Source: Adlercreutzia caecimuris B7 (GTDB lineage: Bacteria; Actinomycetota; Coriobacteriia; Coriobacteriales; Eggerthellaceae). Taken from it: a stretch of 64,000 nucleotides of DNA. The stretch lies in NCBI RefSeq assembly GCF_000403355.2, contig NZ_KE159646.1, positions 1,206,258 to 1,270,257 of the forward strand, written 5' to 3'. Positions 2,147 to 44,527 of this stretch are shown in pieces. The notes under the pieces were generated by a model that was given only the letters and a program-made list of their open reading frames with translations, was not told the origin of the DNA and ran no database searches. Every line of letters starts with the position of its first letter. The stretch's first letter is position 1. A program made the translations under genes and the position numbers.

Positions 2147-4783
2147 CTATTCCTCGATGCCCACGGGCATGACGATGGGCGTGTTCTTGTCGGGATCGAG
2201 CGTGAGCGGCCCGTCGTACTTCTCCACCTGCACGAGGGTGCCCGTCCAAGACTGGGAGCCCTGGCCCGAAGACTTAGGCGCCTGCAGGATGTTCGGGTCG
2301 CCGCCCAGATCGATACCGGTCTCCTCGTCGATGCGGATCCACGCGCCGTCCTGGAGCGCCACCGCGCCCGGAACGATGGTGGGCAGCACCTTGGCCGGGC
2401 GCAGCACCTGGCCATGCGGGCTCGTCATGAGCACCAAGTCACCGGTCTTGATGCCACGGGCCTCGGCGTCCACCGTGCTCATGAAGCACTCCTGGGGGAA
2501 GGCCTCGCGCAGCGAGACGACGTTGTCGTTCACTGTGTGGGCGCGGCGCAGGGAGTGCGGGGTCCACAGCAGCAGCGGGAACTCGTCGGTCTGGGTGCCG
2601 GCGCCCTGCTCGGGGTCGGCGATCTGCCACTTCGCGATGGGCGAGAGCGTGGAGAAGCCGAGGGAATTCACCGTAGCGGCGAGGCCCATGGAGTAAATCT
2701 CGAATTTGCCTGTGGAGGTAGGCAGGGGATTAGCCTCGGGATCCTCGTAGAAAGCAGCCCACGGCAGGCTGGACAGAGCATCGCCCTTCGTGCGCGGAAT
2801 CTTGAAGAAGCCCTTCTCCTTGAACTCGGCCACGGTCATGAGGCCTTCCTGGGGAGCACCCTCCACGCCGAGCTCGTCGATATCGGACTGGGAGATGGTA
2901 AGCAGCGGGGCGTAGCCCATGGCATTGCGATCGGTCAAGTAGGCGGCGCCAGCCAAAGACGAATAGGTGCGCTCGGCGTCGGTCTGGGCGTTCACGACTT
3001 TGGGATCCACATCAAGCCGCTTCGCCAGCTCTTCGGCGATGTAGCTTTCGGGCTGCGATTCGAACAGGGGCTCCATGATGCGATCGGCCCAATACACGGT
3101 ATCGGAGTTGTTCATCCAGGCAATATTGCCCTTCTCCCACCAGGTTGCCACGGGCAGCACGATATCGCAGTACTGGCGCGACGGGTCGAAGAATGGGTTG
3201 GCGCCCCACACGAAGTCAACCTTCCGGAACGCCTTGATGGCGGCGTTCGCATTCGGCATGGAGTTGAGAGAGTTCTCGTAGCCACCGCAATAGATAACGT
3301 GGATATCGAGCGGATGCTTGCCGCCGGGCCAAACGTCGCGACCATAGGCGCCATCCAAAATGGACTGCCAGCATTCGGAGTAATCGATATTCTCCCACGC
3401 CGTCGGGTCTTCCATCTCGGAGAACAGGGGAACCGAAGAAAGCGCGGGGGGCTTGAGCGGATTCACCGGATTCAGCTCGCCCGAGGACGAGTCGCCCGCC
3501 ATGCAGAACGGCGCCGCCGACATGCCTTCGGCCAAGCCTACCCACGAGGCGTAGTTGCCCGGAGTGCCCAGGCCGCCGTGCATCATGGCCAGGGTGTAGA
3601 AGGCCTGGGCGAACATTTCGCCCGCGGGGATCTTCGTGGTAGACTGGCCCGCGAAGAAGTTCACCTTCTCGGTGGAGGCGATCTCCTCGGCCAAACGGCG
3701 GATGTCGGCCGCTGGCACACCACAGATGGCCTCGGCCCACTCGGGAGTCTTCGGCTCGCCGTCATGGGTGCCCAGCACATAGTCCTTGAAGTTGTCCTTC
3801 GGGTCGGCGCCCTCGGGCATATGCTCCGCGTCGAAGCCCACGCAGTACTTGTCGAGGAAATCCTGATCCTGCAGGTCGTTCTCGATCATGTGGTACATCA
3901 TGCCGATGCAGAAGGCCGTATCGGTGCCGGGGATGATGGGCACCCACTCGTCGGCTACCGCCTGGGCCGTCTGGTTCAGCCACGGCTCAACGATGATGAC
4001 CTTGCCGCCCTCGCGCTTGGCGTAGTCGAGCTGGTAGGCGGTGTTGCCGCCCTTGTTGGCCATCCAGTTATTGCCGAAGTGGAAGTGCAGCTCGGAATCT
4101 TGGATGGACAGCGAGTCGGGCGCGGCCAGCATGCCGCCGGTCATCATGATCTCGGGAACGGGCCACGAGCCCAAAGACACGGTACCCAACTCATGATGCA
4201 TCGCGCCGCCCTTGGCGTTCAGCAGGCAGATGACCTGATCGAAATAGGTGTCCCCAATATCGCTGTAAGCAGCAGCTAGGATAGATTTGGGACCCCAGGT
4301 GTCGTAGGCCTTCTTCATCTCGGCGGCAATGTAGTCGAGCGCCTCGTCCCAGCTGATGCGCTCCCACTCGTCGCGACCGCGCATCTCGCCGTTCGGATTG
4401 TCGGGACTCCACCCCTTGCGCTTCATGGGGTATTTGATGCGCGCCGGCGACATCATGTTGCCGATCTGCGCGCGACCGCGGGGGCATGCGCGACGCTGGG
4501 GCACCTCGATGGAATCCTCGTCTTCCTCGTCGGTGCGGATCTTCAGCGGAACCCCGTCCTCCACATACACCTTGAGCAGGCAGCGCGATGAGCCGCAGCT
4601 GCAGTTGTTCATGCAGGCGCCCGTCAGCCACGTGCCCGTCTCCTCGGCGGCATCCCCACCGGTCTGGGACAGCTCGTCATCGCTCTGCGAGGCGCAGCCG
4701 GTGAATCCCACCAGCGCTGTAGCGCCCGCGGCGGCCGTTCCCCATTGAACGAACCTGCGTCGAGTCAGTTGGCTTGTACCCAT
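2147..4783 (-). CDS. DmsA-type molybdopterin oxidoreductase catalytic subunit, Tat-exported
   Basis: Predicted 878-residue catalytic subunit of a DMSO-reductase-family enzyme. The N-terminus has the twin-arginine motif TRRRFVQWG and then a lipobox-like LVGFTGC ending at Cys30. The [4Fe-4S] site is Cys57, Cys61, Cys68 and Cys100; the spacing between the second and third Cys is wider than in E. coli DmsA and an extra Cys63 lies between them. AAYSDIGD is a candidate location for the molybdenum ligand. No in-frame TGA is present, so it is not a selenoprotein. Start 4783 is fixed by GGAGGG six bases upstream and by the Tat motif position. It is first in the operon with DmsB, TorD and NrfD partners. 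The substrate cannot be read from sequence; Eggerthellaceae carry many paralogues. Confidence 0.9.
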   Translation of the reverse strand: MGTSQLTRRRFVQWGTAAAGATALVGFTGCASQSDDELSQTGGDAAEETGTWLTGACMNNCSCGSSRCLLKVYVEDGVPLKIRTDEEDEDSIEVPQRRACPRGRAQIGNMMSPARIKYPMKRKGWSPDNPNGEMRGRDEWERISWDEALDYIAAEMKKAYDTWGPKSILAAAYSDIGDTYFDQVICLLNAKGGAMHHELGTVSLGSWPVPEIMMTGGMLAAPDSLSIQDSELHFHFGNNWMANKGGNTAYQLDYAKREGGKVIIVEPWLNQTAQAVADEWVPIIPGTDTAFCIGMMYHMIENDLQDQDFLDKYCVGFDAEHMPEGADPKDNFKDYVLGTHDGEPKTPEWAEAICGVPAADIRRLAEEIASTEKVNFFAGQSTTKIPAGEMFAQAFYTLAMMHGGLGTPGNYASWVGLAEGMSAAPFCMAGDSSSGELNPVNPLKPPALSSVPLFSEMEDPTAWENIDYSECWQSILDGAYGRDVWPGGKHPLDIHVIYCGGYENSLNSMPNANAAIKAFRKVDFVWGANPFFDPSRQYCDIVLPVATWWEKGNIAWMNNSDTVYWADRIMEPLFESQPESYIAEELAKRLDVDPKVVNAQTDAERTYSSLAGAAYLTDRNAMGYAPLLTISQSDIDELGVEGAPQEGLMTVAEFKEKGFFKIPRTKGDALSSLPWAAFYEDPEANPLPTSTGKFEIYSMGLAATVNSLGFSTLSPIAKWQIADPEQGAGTQTDEFPLLLWTPHSLRRAHTVNDNVVSLREAFPQECFMSTVDAEARGIKTGDLVLMTSPHGQVLRPAKVLPTIVPGAVALQDGAWIRIDEETGIDLGGDPNILQAPKSSGQGSQSWTGTLVQVEKYDGPLTLDPDKNTPIVMPVGIEE

Positions 4784-38893: not shown

Positions 38894-40594
38894 TTACTCG
38901 GGGCGACCATCTTCGCGAATGAGGGCCGCCAGCTCGTCGGCGGAGTGCACGTTCGCTTTCGTGTAGATGGCGTGCACGTGCGATCTCACCGTGGCTACCG
39001 ACACCACGAGCGTCTCGCTGATCTCCTTCGGGCGGCGCCCCTCGGCCAGAAGACGCAGCACCTGGGCTTCGCGCTCGGTGAGCCCGCGGGCGGCCGCCAG
39101 CGCATCGCAGCGCTCGACACGGCGACGATCGAAGCGGCCCCGCGGATCCTCGTGGGGCAGAAGGCCCCAGACCGTCTTGGCATAGCGCTCCGAATTCATA
39201 TTGAACGTCACCAGGCACAGCAGCACGAACACCGCCGTGCCCACCACGCTGAACGCCGCCGTGTCGAGCACGACAACATCGTGCACCGCCGATCCGATGA
39301 CATTGCCGATGAGAAAGCCGACCGACCGAATGAGGAAGGCGCGGCCGAACACCTGGAAGGGCGCCGCGTGAATGGCCTGGCACACGGCATAGCACGCCGT
39401 GGCCAGCAGCGCGTCGAAGTAGTAGAGCGCGCAAGCTTGCATGACGAGCGCCGGCAAGAACTCCGTGGAAGCCGTCAGCGGCCCGAGCAGAGCGGCCACC
39501 GTCACCACGGGAAAGACAAAGCGGTAGAAGCATGTCCAGATACGCGAGACATCGCGGGCACGCGCGGCGGGCATCGTGACGGCGAAGAGCCCGAGCGCCA
39601 GGGCGCCGCCGATGAGAAACGAGCTGACCCGGGCAACCACTCCGAGCGGAATTGCCAACGGCACCACGTGGAGGAACCCGAACACGCCGCCGTACACACC
39701 CACGATGAGGAAGAGCCTCACGCAGAGGGGAATTTTGCGCCTCGGCCGGGCCGGCCGGGCGCCCTGTGGCAAGAAGCCCGTCGCCTGGTCGGCCTCGGCC
39801 TTCCTGCCGACAGCGGCCGCCGAGGCCGAGCCGTCGACGCCGCCCTCCCCCTCCTCGGGGGTGCCAGTCTGCGACCGGATGGGCAGGTACGACATCTCGT
39901 TCCAAGCCGCCACTAGGCACGACGAGGGAGAGAGGGCCTTCAGCGTGCACAGCAGGGCGGTCCCCACCAATGCCAGATGCAGCAACTCGGAGACGAAGAG
40001 GGGCGCATTGGTCTCCAGAACGCTGAACAGCCCTTGCACGACCAGCGTGGTTCCGCCGATGACCGCCACCGCCGAAAGCACGAACTGGCGCGGGGTCAGC
40101 GTCGCCGCCGCCTGGCTGGCCGCGACGAAGAACATCGCCCCCGAAGCCGCCCCCAGAAACTGCACGACCACAACGGCAAAGACCGGGCCTGTCCCCTCCA
40201 TCAACCAGTAGAAGGCAAGCACGTCCACGAACTGCACCGCGAAGAAGGCGACCCAGGTCGGCACATCCCGCACGCGCCGAGCGAACCAGCTGGCGTTAAT
40301 CTGGGTAATGGCGTAGCCGAACACCAAGCCGAGCGAATGGGCGTCGCACGAATAGGCCCGCATGTTCACCGCCCGGCCGCCGACCATGGCGTAATCGAGC
40401 GACCAGCTCGCCGATTCGTGCAGCAGCATAGCCGACGACACCAGCGCCACCACCGCTGCCAGTGTCCAACCCAAACCGACGGGCAGATCGGCCCGATTCC
40501 ACATCTTCGACGCCCCCGCATCGCCCGTCGGCATACCCCGATCCCCAACTTCCACCTGCACCCTCTCCTTCAAGCGCTCATTCCTCCTATTCAT
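38894..40594 (-). CDS. Membrane-bound LuxR-family transcriptional regulator
   Basis: Predicted 566 residues: about twelve hydrophobic segments between residues 40 and 470, then a cytoplasmic LuxR helix-turn-helix (GLTEREAQVLRLLAEG, then PKEISETLVVSVATVRSHVH). This one-component design, with a transporter-like membrane sensor joined to a LuxR output domain, is expanded in Eggerthellaceae and often next to redox enzymes. The start is uncertain: the first ATG has a poor ribosome site, and an AGGAGG inside the frame would fit a TTG at 40573. It is divergent from the cytochrome fusion gene, with tandem operators between; regulation of that gene is the natural guess. Confidence 0.85.
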   Translation of the reverse strand: MNRRNERLKERVQVEVGDRGMPTGDAGASKMWNRADLPVGLGWTLAAVVALVSSAMLLHESASWSLDYAMVGGRAVNMRAYSCDAHSLGLVFGYAITQINASWFARRVRDVPTWVAFFAVQFVDVLAFYWLMEGTGPVFAVVVVQFLGAASGAMFFVAASQAAATLTPRQFVLSAVAVIGGTTLVVQGLFSVLETNAPLFVSELLHLALVGTALLCTLKALSPSSCLVAAWNEMSYLPIRSQTGTPEEGEGGVDGSASAAAVGRKAEADQATGFLPQGARPARPRRKIPLCVRLFLIVGVYGGVFGFLHVVPLAIPLGVVARVSSFLIGGALALGLFAVTMPAARARDVSRIWTCFYRFVFPVVTVAALLGPLTASTEFLPALVMQACALYYFDALLATACYAVCQAIHAAPFQVFGRAFLIRSVGFLIGNVIGSAVHDVVVLDTAAFSVVGTAVFVLLCLVTFNMNSERYAKTVWGLLPHEDPRGRFDRRRVERCDALAAARGLTEREAQVLRLLAEGRRPKEISETLVVSVATVRSHVHAIYTKANVHSADELAALIREDGRPE

Positions 40595-40629
40595 CCGATT
40601 GCATCATATCACCTGGCATTTCATGGAAA

Positions 40630-40678
40630 TCAACAAGAGTTGTTGAGATGAGCGCAAAAGCTCAACAACCCTTGCTGA
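40630..40678. promoter_or_regulatory. Two tandem palindromic operators
   Basis: TCAACAA-GAG-TTGTTGA (40630-40646) is a perfect 7-3-7 palindrome; TCAACAA-CCC-TTGCTGA (40662-40678) is a second copy with one mismatch. They are 32 bases apart, close to three helical turns, so bound dimers would face the same side. They lie between the LuxR gene and the cytochrome gene. No other feature occupies the 40595-40793 gap. Confidence 0.7.
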
Positions 40679-40793
40679 TTTCAAGAGGCTTTCCCGAATT
40701 TAGAGTGAAGTACGGTTCGGAACGCGGCTTCCCGCAGGCAGAAAGAGCGGTTCCGGGCAAGAGTAGTTGGAGAAGAAAGGAAAGGAGAGGAAG

Positions 40794-42374
40794 ATGGGGA
40801 AGAGGGAAACCATGCGGTTCTCGAAGCTGGCCATGGGGCTGGCAGTCGTGGCCGCCGTGCTCGCCATCGCGCTCGCGCTCTGGGGGTGCGCCCCCAAGGC
40901 AACGCTGCCCGACACCGGCAACGCGGAGGGAGGTGCTACCGAGGAGGTCGCGTCGATGTACCCCGACTTCACCGAGAAGTCGTCGGGCAACTTCAACGAC
41001 ACCTTCACCACCACCGACATGCTGAATGCGGGCAACCGCGGCTGCATGTCGTGCCATGAGGACCTATGGGATGTCATGAACATGAAGGATGGCTACAAGC
41101 ACATCCTGACCCATGTGGGCTACGGCAAGGCAATTACCTATCAGGACTGCGAGCCCTGCCACCGCGGCCATACGGCGCTCACCGGTCCGTACCTGGGCGA
41201 CCTCATTCATGCGAGCCACTACGGCAGCGCCACCTTCGTGGAGGCCAACGGCAACTGCTGGAGCTGCCACGCGATGAACTCCGCCGGCAACCAGGGCGAC
41301 TACCAGCTGGTGTTGTGGGACGACATCTACGATGACCCGGCCCTCGGCGGCTATCCCAATATCGACGGCAACGAGATGGAGCAGGACTGGGTCGACTCCC
41401 GCGGCTTCTTCGGCGGCTTCATGAACGGCATGACCCAGGACAGCGCCCCGACCGTCGACGTGAAGCTCGACCAGGCCGTGACCGACCACGACGACGTGTT
41501 CATCGTGAACAACTGGGGCCCCGAGGTCACCGAGAAGAACGGCGAGCCCTTCAGCTTCGACGAGGTGTGCAGCGACGAGAACACCCTCACCCTCACCGGC
41601 GTGAAGAACCCGCGCTCATTCACCAAGGCCGAGCTTGAGGCCATGCCTCGGACCGAATTCACCATGGCCCTCGCCTGCGCCACCAACGGTCGCGGCGGCT
41701 CACTCGTGTCGAACATCCCCATGTCCGGCGTGTCGGTGGCCTATCTCATCGAGCAGTGCGGCGGCCTGGCCGACGGCGTGAACGCCGTGAACGCCACCGG
41801 CGCCGACGGCTGGAAGGCCTTCCCGCCCATGAACTTGGAGGCGAGCACCTACACCGAGAACGCCTATATCGCCCTGAAGTACTACGGCGAGGATCTCTCC
41901 GACGACGACGGCGCGCCCATGACGCTCGTATCGCTCGGCAACCCGGGCGCTCGTCAGGTGAAGCACATCCAGTCCATCGACTTCACCCAGGACGAGAGCT
42001 TCTTCGAGGGCCCCATGATGGCCGAGTCCGACGAGCCCTCCCCGAGCTACCCCATCAACGGCATGTGGTTCCAGGAGGACGGCATCACCGCCAAGGTGGG
42101 CGAGACCGTAACCCTGACCGGCGCCGTGTACAGCTGGAACCGCGTGGTGGGCGACTTGGCCAGCGTGAACTTTAGCTTCGATATGGGCAAGTCCTGGACC
42201 GACGTGCAGATCGCCGACCAGATTACCGACTTCGATCCGTTCCAGTGGGTGACCTACTCCCTTGACTGGACCCCCACTCAGGCCGGTAAGTATCAGGTGA
42301 AGCTGCAGGCCACCGACGTGAACGGCACCCAGATGAAGAAGCCCGTCACCCTGTTCGTGAACGTTGAAGAGTAG
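40794..42374 (+). CDS. Three-haem cytochrome c fused to a sulfite-oxidase-fold (molybdopterin) domain
   Basis: Predicted 526-residue exported lipoprotein (lipobox-like ALALWGC, Cys32). Haem motifs CMSCH (84-88), CEPCH (119-123) and CWSCH (155-159) occupy the first third. The second third matches the sulfite oxidase core: NPRSFTKAELEAMPR and the cofactor-Cys region TMALACATNGRGG (Cys295), then GARQVKHIQSI. The last third (FSFDMGKSW) is like the Mo-co dimerisation domain. An electron path from a molybdenum site to the haems in one chain is implied. The usual CxGNRR motif is CATNGR, so cofactor binding is unproven. Start 40794 has AAGGAG six bases upstream. It is followed by a small exported partner. 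Confidence 0.82.
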   Translation: MGKRETMRFSKLAMGLAVVAAVLAIALALWGCAPKATLPDTGNAEGGATEEVASMYPDFTEKSSGNFNDTFTTTDMLNAGNRGCMSCHEDLWDVMNMKDGYKHILTHVGYGKAITYQDCEPCHRGHTALTGPYLGDLIHASHYGSATFVEANGNCWSCHAMNSAGNQGDYQLVLWDDIYDDPALGGYPNIDGNEMEQDWVDSRGFFGGFMNGMTQDSAPTVDVKLDQAVTDHDDVFIVNNWGPEVTEKNGEPFSFDEVCSDENTLTLTGVKNPRSFTKAELEAMPRTEFTMALACATNGRGGSLVSNIPMSGVSVAYLIEQCGGLADGVNAVNATGADGWKAFPPMNLEASTYTENAYIALKYYGEDLSDDDGAPMTLVSLGNPGARQVKHIQSIDFTQDESFFEGPMMAESDEPSPSYPINGMWFQEDGITAKVGETVTLTGAVYSWNRVVGDLASVNFSFDMGKSWTDVQIADQITDFDPFQWVTYSLDWTPTQAGKYQVKLQATDVNGTQMKKPVTLFVNVEE

Positions 42375-42390
42375 GAAGGCCGGTGAAATT

Positions 42391-42882
42391 ATGAAATCCC
42401 AGACTTTGAAGACCATCGGGGGCGCGCTTTCTGCCGTCGCCCTCATTTCCGGCGGCGCGACCGTGGCCGTGGCCGCCCCGGCGGACGCCGCCAACGTGCC
42501 CGCGGCCGCCATCGAGGCCGCATCTGAGGTCGGCACCGGCGATGTGGTGAAGGCCAGTGCCGTTGAGGGCACCTTCTCGTTCGACCAGGCCGCCACGACC
42601 AGCAACGAGACCTTCTCGAGCATGTTCGCCAAGGCCGCCGCGGTTCTCTGCAACGGGCTTCCCGTGTACGAGGCGCAGGCCGCCCAGGCCGCTATCGAGG
42701 TCAACGGTGTCGACGGCAGCTCGTTTACGGCCACCGTGGACGAGATGGCCGAGGCGAACGGCGCCGAGAGCTACACCATGGCATGCGCCTGCTCCACGAA
42801 CACCCCGGGCGGCGGCGCCATCGCCAACGCCGAGGTAGAGGGCGTGAGCCTTGCCACCATCATGAAGATGATGGCCGCCTAG
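42391..42882 (+). CDS. Small exported protein resembling the cofactor lobe of the preceding fusion
   Basis: Predicted 163 residues with a Sec signal (MKSQTLKTIGGALSAVALI, cleavage likely after AVAAPADA). Its C-terminal half, with TMACACSTNTPGGG at 129-142 and GVSLATIMKMM after it, lines up with TMALACATNGRGG and GVSVAYLIEQ of the upstream protein, so it looks like a stand-alone piece of the sulfite-oxidase fold keeping the key Cys (134 here). The ribosome site is GGTG, five bases from the ATG. It starts 16 bases after the fusion gene and ends at a strong terminator. A role as cofactor carrier, subunit or decoy is possible; none is established. Confidence 0.7.
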   Translation: MKSQTLKTIGGALSAVALISGGATVAVAAPADAANVPAAAIEAASEVGTGDVVKASAVEGTFSFDQAATTSNETFSSMFAKAAAVLCNGLPVYEAQAAQAAIEVNGVDGSSFTATVDEMAEANGAESYTMACACSTNTPGGGAIANAEVEGVSLATIMKMMAA

Positions 42883-42941
42883 CCGCTCCCGGAAGAGCCG
42901 CTCGCTCCTCCCCTCCCATATGAGCGGCAATTCCGAGCGCC

Positions 42942-42970
42942 AAGCCCCGAGGGTTCCCTCGGGGCTTTTT
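42942..42970 (+). terminator. Terminator of the cytochrome-SUOX operon
   Basis: A 12-bp perfect stem (AAGCCCCGAGGG with its complement) with a tight loop, directly followed by TTTTT. It is 60 bases after the small gene. Confidence 0.93.
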
Positions 42971-43009
42971 CACGTGCCGGCGCAACACCACGGTACCGCA
43001 CGTCGGCCT

Positions 43010-43183: not shown

Positions 43184-44527
43184 CTACTTCGTCTTGGCCT
43201 TTTTAACGCTCGACCACTTTGAGTAGTATTTTTTACCGTCGATCTTGTGGTAGGTTCGAATCTTCACATAGTAGGTTTTCTTCGCCTTCAACTTCTTCAC
43301 CATAAGGGAAGTGGTTTTGGCTTTTTTGGCCGTCTTCTTCACCGTGGTCTTCTTCGTGAACCTCTTCGACGTGGAGCACCAAATCTCATAGCCCGTTACG
43401 TTCTTCGTCTGCTTCTTCCACTTGATCTTGAGAGACTTCTTCGCACCCTTGACCGAGGTGAACTTCGTCTTCGGCGGCTTAACGGCTTTGGTCGATACGG
43501 AAGGCTTAGACGCGGTGGACCCTGACGGCTTCGTTGCGGAAGGCGTCGAGGGCTTTGCAGCTCCCGCCGAAGACGACTGGGCTTTTACCGTCACCGCAAC
43601 CGCAGTCTGCAGCCCATTAGCCGATGCCGTGAGGGTGGCGGTGCCGGCTTTTTTGCCGACCACGGTGTTCCCGCTGATGGCGGCCACCGACGAATTGCTG
43701 CTCGTCCACACGGGGCTAGAAGCCCTCAGCGTCAGTGGGCTCGACGGCCAGCGGTCCCGCACGGTGAGGGACAAGTTCACCAAAGGCAACGCAACCGATT
43801 TCCCCGCCGTCACCGTCAGAGACGCCTTGGCGGGCTTGAGGGCTTTCTGGGAGATCATCGCATCGTCGATCGCGACAGGCACCGTGCGAGCACCATCAGC
43901 GACGGCTGTAGCAGGCGCCCCGGTGTTTGGAGAGCCGAAGTTTTGCACCCAATAGTGGACGCCGTTGAAAGTCACGTGCCCGATGCCAACCGCGGTAAAA
44001 CCGCTGTTGAGCATATTGCGACGATGACCCTGGCCCGCATAACCGTAGTTGTCCTCGCGCCAACTTGTAAAAGCGCTCGCAGCCGTTGTCTGCCCAGCAG
44101 CGATGTTCTCGCCCATTGCGTAAAGAGGGAGGGAGGAGAGCGCATCGAAGCAGCTGCCGCCATTCGGCCGAGTGTGAGAGAAGCTCACTGCGATCTCAGC
44201 CGCACGCAGCATAGCAGCCTGCTCAAGCGCGTAATCGTAGGTCAGCTCTCCCAAGTTCGCACACGTCACCTTCGTTGCGTCACCCCGATTCCAGTACCAC
44301 GCATCGCCGCCCGTTCGGAAGTCGTTAATCATTTTGATCATTTCGCGGGCCTCGGTCTGGCCGTAGGTGACAGGAACCTGGTAATCCGCCGTCGCGGCTT
44401 CGGCCGGCTGGGTCGGCAGAATCGTCATGGTAGCGGCGAGGGCCACGGCCAGCACGCCGCTTATCATCCGATTACAGCGAGCTACCCCCCCCCGAATGCC
44501 TTTTTCGCTCTTCGGCAATGCGAACAT
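43184..44527 (-). CDS. Secreted CAP/SCP-domain protein with Ig-like and fibronectin-like domains
   Basis: Predicted 447 residues: signal peptide (ISGVLAVALAATMTILPTQPAEA), a CAP domain (about 55-205; FSHTRPNGG, GENIAAG, GHRRNMLNSGFTAVGIGH and HYWVQNF are typical), a bacterial Ig-like domain (about 235-315), a Ser/Thr/Pro linker and a Lys-rich fibronectin-III-like end. Such proteins act at the cell surface; the enzymatic role of CAP domains is debated. Start 44527 has AAGGAGG five bases upstream. A run of nine G (coding strand) encodes part of residues 11-14, before the signal helix, so slippage would abolish the protein. There is no LPxTG anchor. Confidence 0.85.
   Translation of the reverse strand: MFALPKSEKGIRGGVARCNRMISGVLAVALAATMTILPTQPAEAATADYQVPVTYGQTEAREMIKMINDFRTGGDAWYWNRGDATKVTCANLGELTYDYALEQAAMLRAAEIAVSFSHTRPNGGSCFDALSSLPLYAMGENIAAGQTTAASAFTSWREDNYGYAGQGHRRNMLNSGFTAVGIGHVTFNGVHYWVQNFGSPNTGAPATAVADGARTVPVAIDDAMISQKALKPAKASLTVTAGKSVALPLVNLSLTVRDRWPSSPLTLRASSPVWTSSNSSVAAISGNTVVGKKAGTATLTASANGLQTAVAVTVKAQSSSAGAAKPSTPSATKPSGSTASKPSVSTKAVKPPKTKFTSVKGAKKSLKIKWKKQTKNVTGYEIWCSTSKRFTKKTTVKKTAKKAKTTSLMVKKLKAKKTYYVKIRTYHKIDGKKYYSKWSSVKKAKTK
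44485..44493 (-). repeat. G9 homopolymer in the CAP gene's 5' coding end
   Basis: Nine consecutive G on the coding strand (CCCCCCCCC on the plus strand). At nine the frame is open from the well-supported ATG. Homopolymers of this length are prone to slipped-strand change, and the tract is placed as in phase-variable surface genes. A -10-like TATACT lies at 44567-44562; the remainder of the 302-base gap 44528-44829 holds the rplW terminator and no gene. Confidence 0.7.

Follow-up and report, generated by a model that had tools for sequence, protein, structure and literature searches.

A predicted lipoprotein joining a tri-haem cytochrome to a sulfite oxidase fold, with a split partner chain and a divergent membrane LuxR regulator, in Eggerthellaceae

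The bacterial SorAB and SorT-SorU enzymes combine a sulfite oxidase (SUOX) domain and an immunoglobulin (Ig)-like dimerisation domain with a c-type haem electron partner, which is a separate cytochrome. MsrPQ (YedYZ) is a quinone-fed SUOX-fold reductase outside the cytoplasmic membrane; MsrP carries no haems, is exported by the twin-arginine translocation (Tat) system and has the haem-bearing membrane protein MsrQ as its partner. Tat is normally required by exported bacterial molybdenum enzymes. Here we describe a three-gene unit in a 64,000-nucleotide stretch of the Adlercreutzia caecimuris B7 genome (C1:1206258-1270257, hereafter the window; 2.96-Mb genome, completeness 99.9%). The unit encodes a predicted 526-residue lipoprotein in which a cytochrome c is fused to a SUOX domain (the fusion; 40794..42374, plus strand), a 163-residue exported partner (42391..42882, plus strand) and a divergent 566-residue LuxR-type membrane regulator (38894..40594, minus strand). 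The three genes are real and form one unit; their features are kept across 40-54 homologues, far above chance expectation. We consider it an evenly balanced proposition that they represent a lineage-specific family of extracytoplasmic respiratory oxidoreductases in Eggerthellaceae, induced by their substrates.

The initial annotation had assigned three haems, a SUOX domain and a dimerisation domain to one exported chain. A single plus-strand open reading frame does hold CMSCH, CEPCH, CWSCH, NPRSFTK, TMALACATNGRGG and GARQVKHIQSI, and Pfam and profile matches bear the assignment out. A c7-like tri-haem cytochrome c (residues ~65-200) is followed by the SUOX domain (~225-402) and an Ig-like Mo-co dimerisation domain (~420-526). 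Pfam matches Oxidored_molyb (PF00174) to residues 261-402 (1.4e-20) and places Cytochrome_C7 just above threshold (1.5e-5, 25.1 bits vs a cut-off of 24.8). The fusion-family profile aligns with SorA over positions 258-515 (1.6e-34), spanning the SUOX and dimerisation domains, and SorT and SorA are the nearest solved relatives. Translation likely starts at ATG 40794 and not at TTG 40767; a strong Shine-Dalgarno sequence (AAGGAGAGG) precedes this ATG and is kept in orthologues. The lipobox, LWGC, ends at Cys32, which predicts a lipoprotein.

Residue counts given here come from an alignment of 40 fusions, a Tat check of 54 fusions and a set of 53 partner proteins. Haem site 1 (CMSCH, residues 84-88, 41043..41057, plus strand) is invariant in 40/40 fusions, as are the haem Cys and His residues of site 2 (CEPCH, 119-123, 41148..41162, plus strand) and site 3 (CWSCH, 155-159, 41256..41270, plus strand). 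Beyond these, exactly three further His residues (His103, His139 and His142) are invariant in all 40, and the haems are probably bis-His coordinated. The fusion is under purifying selection (dN/dS 0.12-0.21). It shares the cofactor Cys position with SorAB and SorT-SorU. In contrast to these enzymes, it carries its haems N-terminally in the same chain, is a lipoprotein without a Tat motif, has lost the catalytic Arg and most pterin-phosphate ligands, and is accompanied by a second SUOX-fold protein and a LuxR switch. Its own haems and the lack of a Tat motif also set it apart from MsrP, with which it would share an extracytoplasmic, quinone-fed SUOX fold.

By protein search the fusion family occurs in 36/138 Eggerthellaceae genomes and 14/48 genera, with up to about a dozen copies per genome. 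The family profile recovers full-length fusions from 36/398 Coriobacteriia genomes, 33 inside the Eggerthellaceae and three outside; among the matches listed, those from other Actinomycetota cover profile positions from ~208 only and are SUOX proteins of the usual type that lack the haem part. The three-gene neighbourhood recurs across genera. Among 42 fusion loci with flanks, the SUOX-only partner lies immediately downstream on the same strand in 41, usually after a gap of ~13 nt, and just upstream of the fusion in the remaining one (L069), so that it is adjacent in 42/42; a divergent luxR gene lies within 3 kb in 29. In A. hattorii (L007) the whole unit is duplicated in tandem. Ribosomal protein genes, which we take to be rplC and rplD, border the unit in the window and in the orthologous loci L006 and L007, the orthologues with enough flank, indicating a conserved position. 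At another locus (L077, 14220-15335) a five-CxxCH cytochrome c552-like protein is encoded near a fusion unit (Pfam Cytochrom_C552, 1.6e-27).

The partner consists of a signal peptide and half of a second SUOX domain, the N-terminal one. It matches the Cys-containing half of the fusion's own SUOX domain (E 3e-6; Pfam 0.0018), and its Cys134 aligns with the Mo-ligand Cys. The small exported partner noted initially is therefore present and exported but not an unrelated protein, and the fusion is not self-contained as had been supposed, because a second SUOX-fold chain, here the N-terminal half, always accompanies it. This second chain takes three forms: one chain of 344-422 residues; a chain of ~265-295 residues with a separate Ig-domain piece of ~90-104 residues; and, as in the window, a half of ~159-178 residues that ends at profile position ~300-307, an end point common to 31 half-length partners, and may or may not be accompanied by a separate C-terminal half starting at ~301-311. 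Cys87, Cys132, Cys134 and Gln66 are invariant throughout the 53 partner proteins, whichever of the three forms they take, and the partner is under purifying selection (dN/dS 0.32-0.55). Signal peptides are found on the proximal pieces and on none of the distal ones (median peak N-terminal hydropathy 1.91 vs 0.73 and 0.63).

The C-terminal half belonging to the window genome lies ~0.7 Mb from the unit (C1:1940143-1940751; L074, 6144-6752), lacks a signal peptide and adjoins what are presumably menF- and menD-like menaquinone synthesis genes. Free-standing C-terminal halves occur in 15 genomes, all with some fusion, and in 13/18 genomes with the close fusion type vs 2/120 others (Fisher 1.4e-12, with relatedness ignored). 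Two of the genomes with the nearest orthologues (G008 and G078) showed no such half, so it is either not obligatory or was missed there. The five PF00174 matches in the A. caecimuris genome all fall within this system: two are the window pair, two belong to a second fusion and its partner, and the fifth is the C-terminal half. The second copy (L073, C1:1754762-1757575) comprises a 551-residue haem-SUOX fusion and a 266-residue partner, followed in frame, beyond a TAG stop codon, by a separate Ig piece. In A. hattorii a C-terminal half (L007, 5303-6013) lies between the tandem units, directly behind luxR on the same strand and overlapping its end. Junctions between partner pieces may be in frame with TAG, TAA or TGA, form an ATGA overlap, or leave a 2-nt gap. 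Frameshifting or stop-codon read-through was rejected as a general explanation for joining the pieces, because their frame relation varies among loci and distal pieces have their own starts. Elsewhere, a Mo-co dimerisation-type Ig-like domain without a signal peptide is joined to a tyrosine-phosphatase domain (L055, 3480-4559; L046, 13050-14000; L152, 861-1898), recognised as Y_phosphatase3 by Pfam in L055 and L046 and by similarity in L152, which belongs to the A. caecimuris genome (~C1:2707360-2708397).

The regulator has a C-terminal GerE helix-turn-helix domain (residues 505-557; Pfam 1.9e-13) preceded by ~11 hydrophobic helices (11 hydropathy peaks), and is a member of the known LuxR kind with 10-12 transmembrane helices. 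As set out by Dong et al. 2022 (PMC9734109), this family is present in Coriobacteriia including Adlercreutzia, Eggerthella lenta DSM 2243 encodes 83 transmembrane LuxR proteins, and in E. lenta such regulators switch on reductases encoded next to them. DadR, HcdR and CadR share with the window protein an N-terminal multi-helix membrane domain, a C-terminal GerE domain, adjoining redox enzyme genes and expansion in Coriobacteriia; they control catechol dehydroxylases, whereas the presumed target here is the haem-SUOX fusion. No operator sequence for the E. lenta regulators was found in the searched passages of that paper; the window contains a predicted two-site palindrome with a CAA-N3-TTG core.

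This predicted operator (40626..40682) consists of two copies of TCAACAA-N3-TTGYTGA (40630-40646 and 40662-40678), 32 bp apart and both contained in a 22-nt inverted repeat between luxR and the fusion gene. The two copies are situated upstream of both genes, at a distance of 36-84 nt from the luxR start and 116-164 nt from the fusion start. Four orthologues keep the dyads, with variable sequence between them, and genome-wide the pattern occurs nowhere else, apart from one site with a single mismatch at C1:503335. A perfect 7-3-7 dyad is present in 13/29 divergent regions of the family (five of the 13 being the window and its orthologues), vs 1.1 expected and a maximum of four in 200 mononucleotide shuffles; among paralogues the motif varies, as in TCATCAA-N3-TTGATGA. 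Scanning 40560-43000 for promoters gave no sigma-70-like site. LuxR and fusion distances are correlated (Mantel r 0.89 for 31 loci, 0.68 for 22 non-redundant loci), and those of fusion and partner more weakly (0.53; 0.36 non-redundant), all tests being at the permutation floor of 0.0005. The predicted operator, together with the way in which LuxR and fusion diverge in step, supports the earlier suggestion of a dedicated switch.

These features suggest the following scheme. The LuxR protein would respond to a small molecule sensed at the membrane and use the TCAACAA-N3-TTGTTGA sites to activate the divergent operon. Judging from its signal, the fusion would be exported by the general secretory (Sec) pathway and lipid-anchored at the membrane's outer face. 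Its three covalent haems, probably bis-His, would pass electrons from the menaquinone pool to the SUOX-fold site at Cys295 of the same chain, where one specific acceptor would be reduced; reduction rather than oxidation is the direction we infer. Universal adjacency and the shared domain suggest that the second SUOX chain pairs with the fusion, taking the place that the second subunit holds in ordinary SUOX dimers. The many paralogues, with regulators of their own and operators that have diverged, may then provide one enzyme per acceptor, as do the Eggerthella catechol dehydroxylases.

Fusion residues were mapped on chicken sulfite oxidase with verified numbering, taking residue roles from PMC5856855: Arg138 and Arg190 belong to the active site, and His283, Arg288 and Lys301 bind the pterin phosphate. 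Cys185 and Lys301 have kept equivalents. Cys295 (codon 41676..41678, plus strand), which had been predicted to occupy the Mo-ligand Cys position of sulfite oxidases, does so and is invariant in 40/40 homologues, and position 390, corresponding to Lys301, the third pterin-phosphate ligand, is Lys in 36 fusions and Arg in four. A number of observations weigh against the scheme. The equivalent of Arg138, mapped by a single profile alignment with 6y0k, is Arg in 0/40 fusions; that of Arg190 is Arg in 4/40, among them the window protein (Arg300); and those of His283 and Arg288 are kept in 2/40 and 4/40. No conserved twin-arginine motif was found in the fusions (1/54) or partners; as a control, a Tat motif was present in 15/26 loci for bis-molybdopterin guanine dinucleotide (bis-MGD) enzymes of the same genome, using a comparable pattern that additionally required hydrophobicity. 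The genome encodes no NapC/NirT-type quinol cytochrome. Nearest-neighbour agreement is just 6/22 between LuxR and fusion and 5/22 between fusion and partner. AlphaFold models from a six-row alignment were poor, with a predicted local distance difference test score (pLDDT) of 38.5 for the whole fusion and 49.6 for residues 225-526. The top 20 Foldseek matches to the latter model were all SUOX enzymes (4e-13 to 8e-9) but at a root-mean-square deviation of ~12 Å; they therefore add little, and it is the profile match that carries the fold assignment. VIA-align rows (Z ~9-10) were dropped as evidence, since they reflect mostly the generic Ig-like domain, SoxYZ included.

Loss of the catalytic Arg and of most pterin-phosphate ligands makes sulfite oxidation of the known kind unlikely, and the ligand losses combined with the missing Tat signal leave molybdenum or molybdopterin binding uncertain. 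The cofactor assignment made initially is thus upheld for Cys295 and doubtful for the metal. We would place molybdopterin as a possible cofactor somewhat short of an even chance, with reuse of the SUOX fold without molybdenum about as likely; the choice of cofactor would refine the proposed respiratory role and not exclude it. The genome encodes TatC, MoaA and CcmF/CcmC-like haem attachment proteins, so both cofactor routes exist in it, and no ResB was found there. It is quite improbable that the fusion is a conventional molybdenum sulfite dehydrogenase, in effect a fused SorAB or SorT that oxidises sulfite or a related sulfur compound and delivers electrons to its own haems. Its kinship with SorT and SorA, the retention of Cys295 and Lys390 (and, in the window protein, of Arg300) and a genome that makes the molybdenum cofactor would fit such an enzyme, but the lost Arg138, His283 and Arg288 equivalents and the lack of a Tat signal do not; moreover, the fusion falls far under the NCBIfam cut-offs for the SorT, SoxC and SorA models, and many paralogues with private regulators are ill-suited to a single sulfite-detoxifying enzyme. 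An MsrP-like molybdenum reductase, whose SUOX site would reduce a sulfoxide or N-oxide and whose haems would replace MsrQ, is also unlikely, though a serious candidate. The invariant Cys295, the Lys or Arg at position 390, a haem domain within the same chain, and the control of reductases by neighbouring LuxR proteins of this type (PMC9734109) speak for it, whereas the NCBIfam MsrP model scores the fusion at only 13.5 bits vs a cut-off of 207, and the ligand losses and missing Tat signal count against it here too.

The same two features favour a SUOX fold that no longer binds molybdopterin, a reading that we hold to be somewhat less likely than not. The fusion Cys and three partner Cys would then make up a different metal or thiol site; alternatively, the two proteins would serve as an electron-transfer or docking module for another terminal enzyme. 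Signals without a Tat motif in 53/54 fusions and essentially all partners, the lost Arg and His ligands, and the invariance of Cys87, Cys132 and Cys134 in 53 partners are consistent with this, but Cys295 and Lys/Arg390 are the residues a molybdenum cofactor protein would keep, and the SUOX domain is otherwise well preserved. We see very little likelihood that the small partner is a functionless, decaying truncated duplicate, even though it holds half a SUOX domain, has a fuller 266-residue version elsewhere in the genome and evolves with a higher dN/dS than the fusion. Its common end point among 31 half-length partners, the three invariant Cys, the kept signal peptide, the constant adjacency to the fusion and the near confinement of the C-terminal half to the same genomes argue against decay, and a pseudogene was rejected on these grounds. 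A more specific version of the respiratory proposal, in which a haem-fused SUOX protein is exported by Sec without molybdopterin, its second SUOX chain is split at two places into an exported N-terminal and a signal-less C-terminal piece, and each copy answers to its own membrane LuxR and a diverged palindromic operator, is plausible but remains the minority view in our assessment.

If that version is true, the family would be a new respiratory enzyme class with an active site that is repurposed or unusually assembled. The SUOX fold and LuxR-controlled respiratory enzymes are known kinds; what is new is the haem-SUOX fusion with its split partner. No description of either was found in the open-access literature and none in curated families, in keeping with the first suggestion of a new combination, but the membrane LuxR type has been known since 2022 (PMC9734109). 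Novelty would rise if the site turned out to lack molybdenum or if the pieces of the split chain were shown to assemble, and the missing conserved Tat signal and split partner raise the question how, or whether, a SUOX-fold protein acquires its cofactor. Anaerobic respiration in Eggerthellaceae modifies drugs, plant compounds and host metabolites, by reductases so far counted as flavin or bis-MGD molybdenum enzymes. The family resembles the Eggerthella repertoires (catechol dehydroxylases, Cgr2) in being rich in paralogues, many of which adjoin a membrane LuxR of their own, in anaerobic gut Actinomycetota. In contrast to the Eggerthella flavin and molybdopterin reductases, which are of COG1053 or COG0243 type, it lies outside the two reductase families of PMC13060105. 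This repertoire would grow by a third family, present in multiple copies and equipped with regulators of its own, which would offer testable operator sites for finding inducers.

The interval first marked for the unit (40594-42882) covers the fusion and partner but reaches no more than the 5' end of the regulator. The window also encodes a CAP-domain protein with a fibronectin-III-type domain (43184-44527, minus strand), located between this unit and the ribosomal protein genes. One of the 26 bis-MGD molybdopterin oxidoreductase matches of the genome also falls within the window (3017-4441, minus strand).

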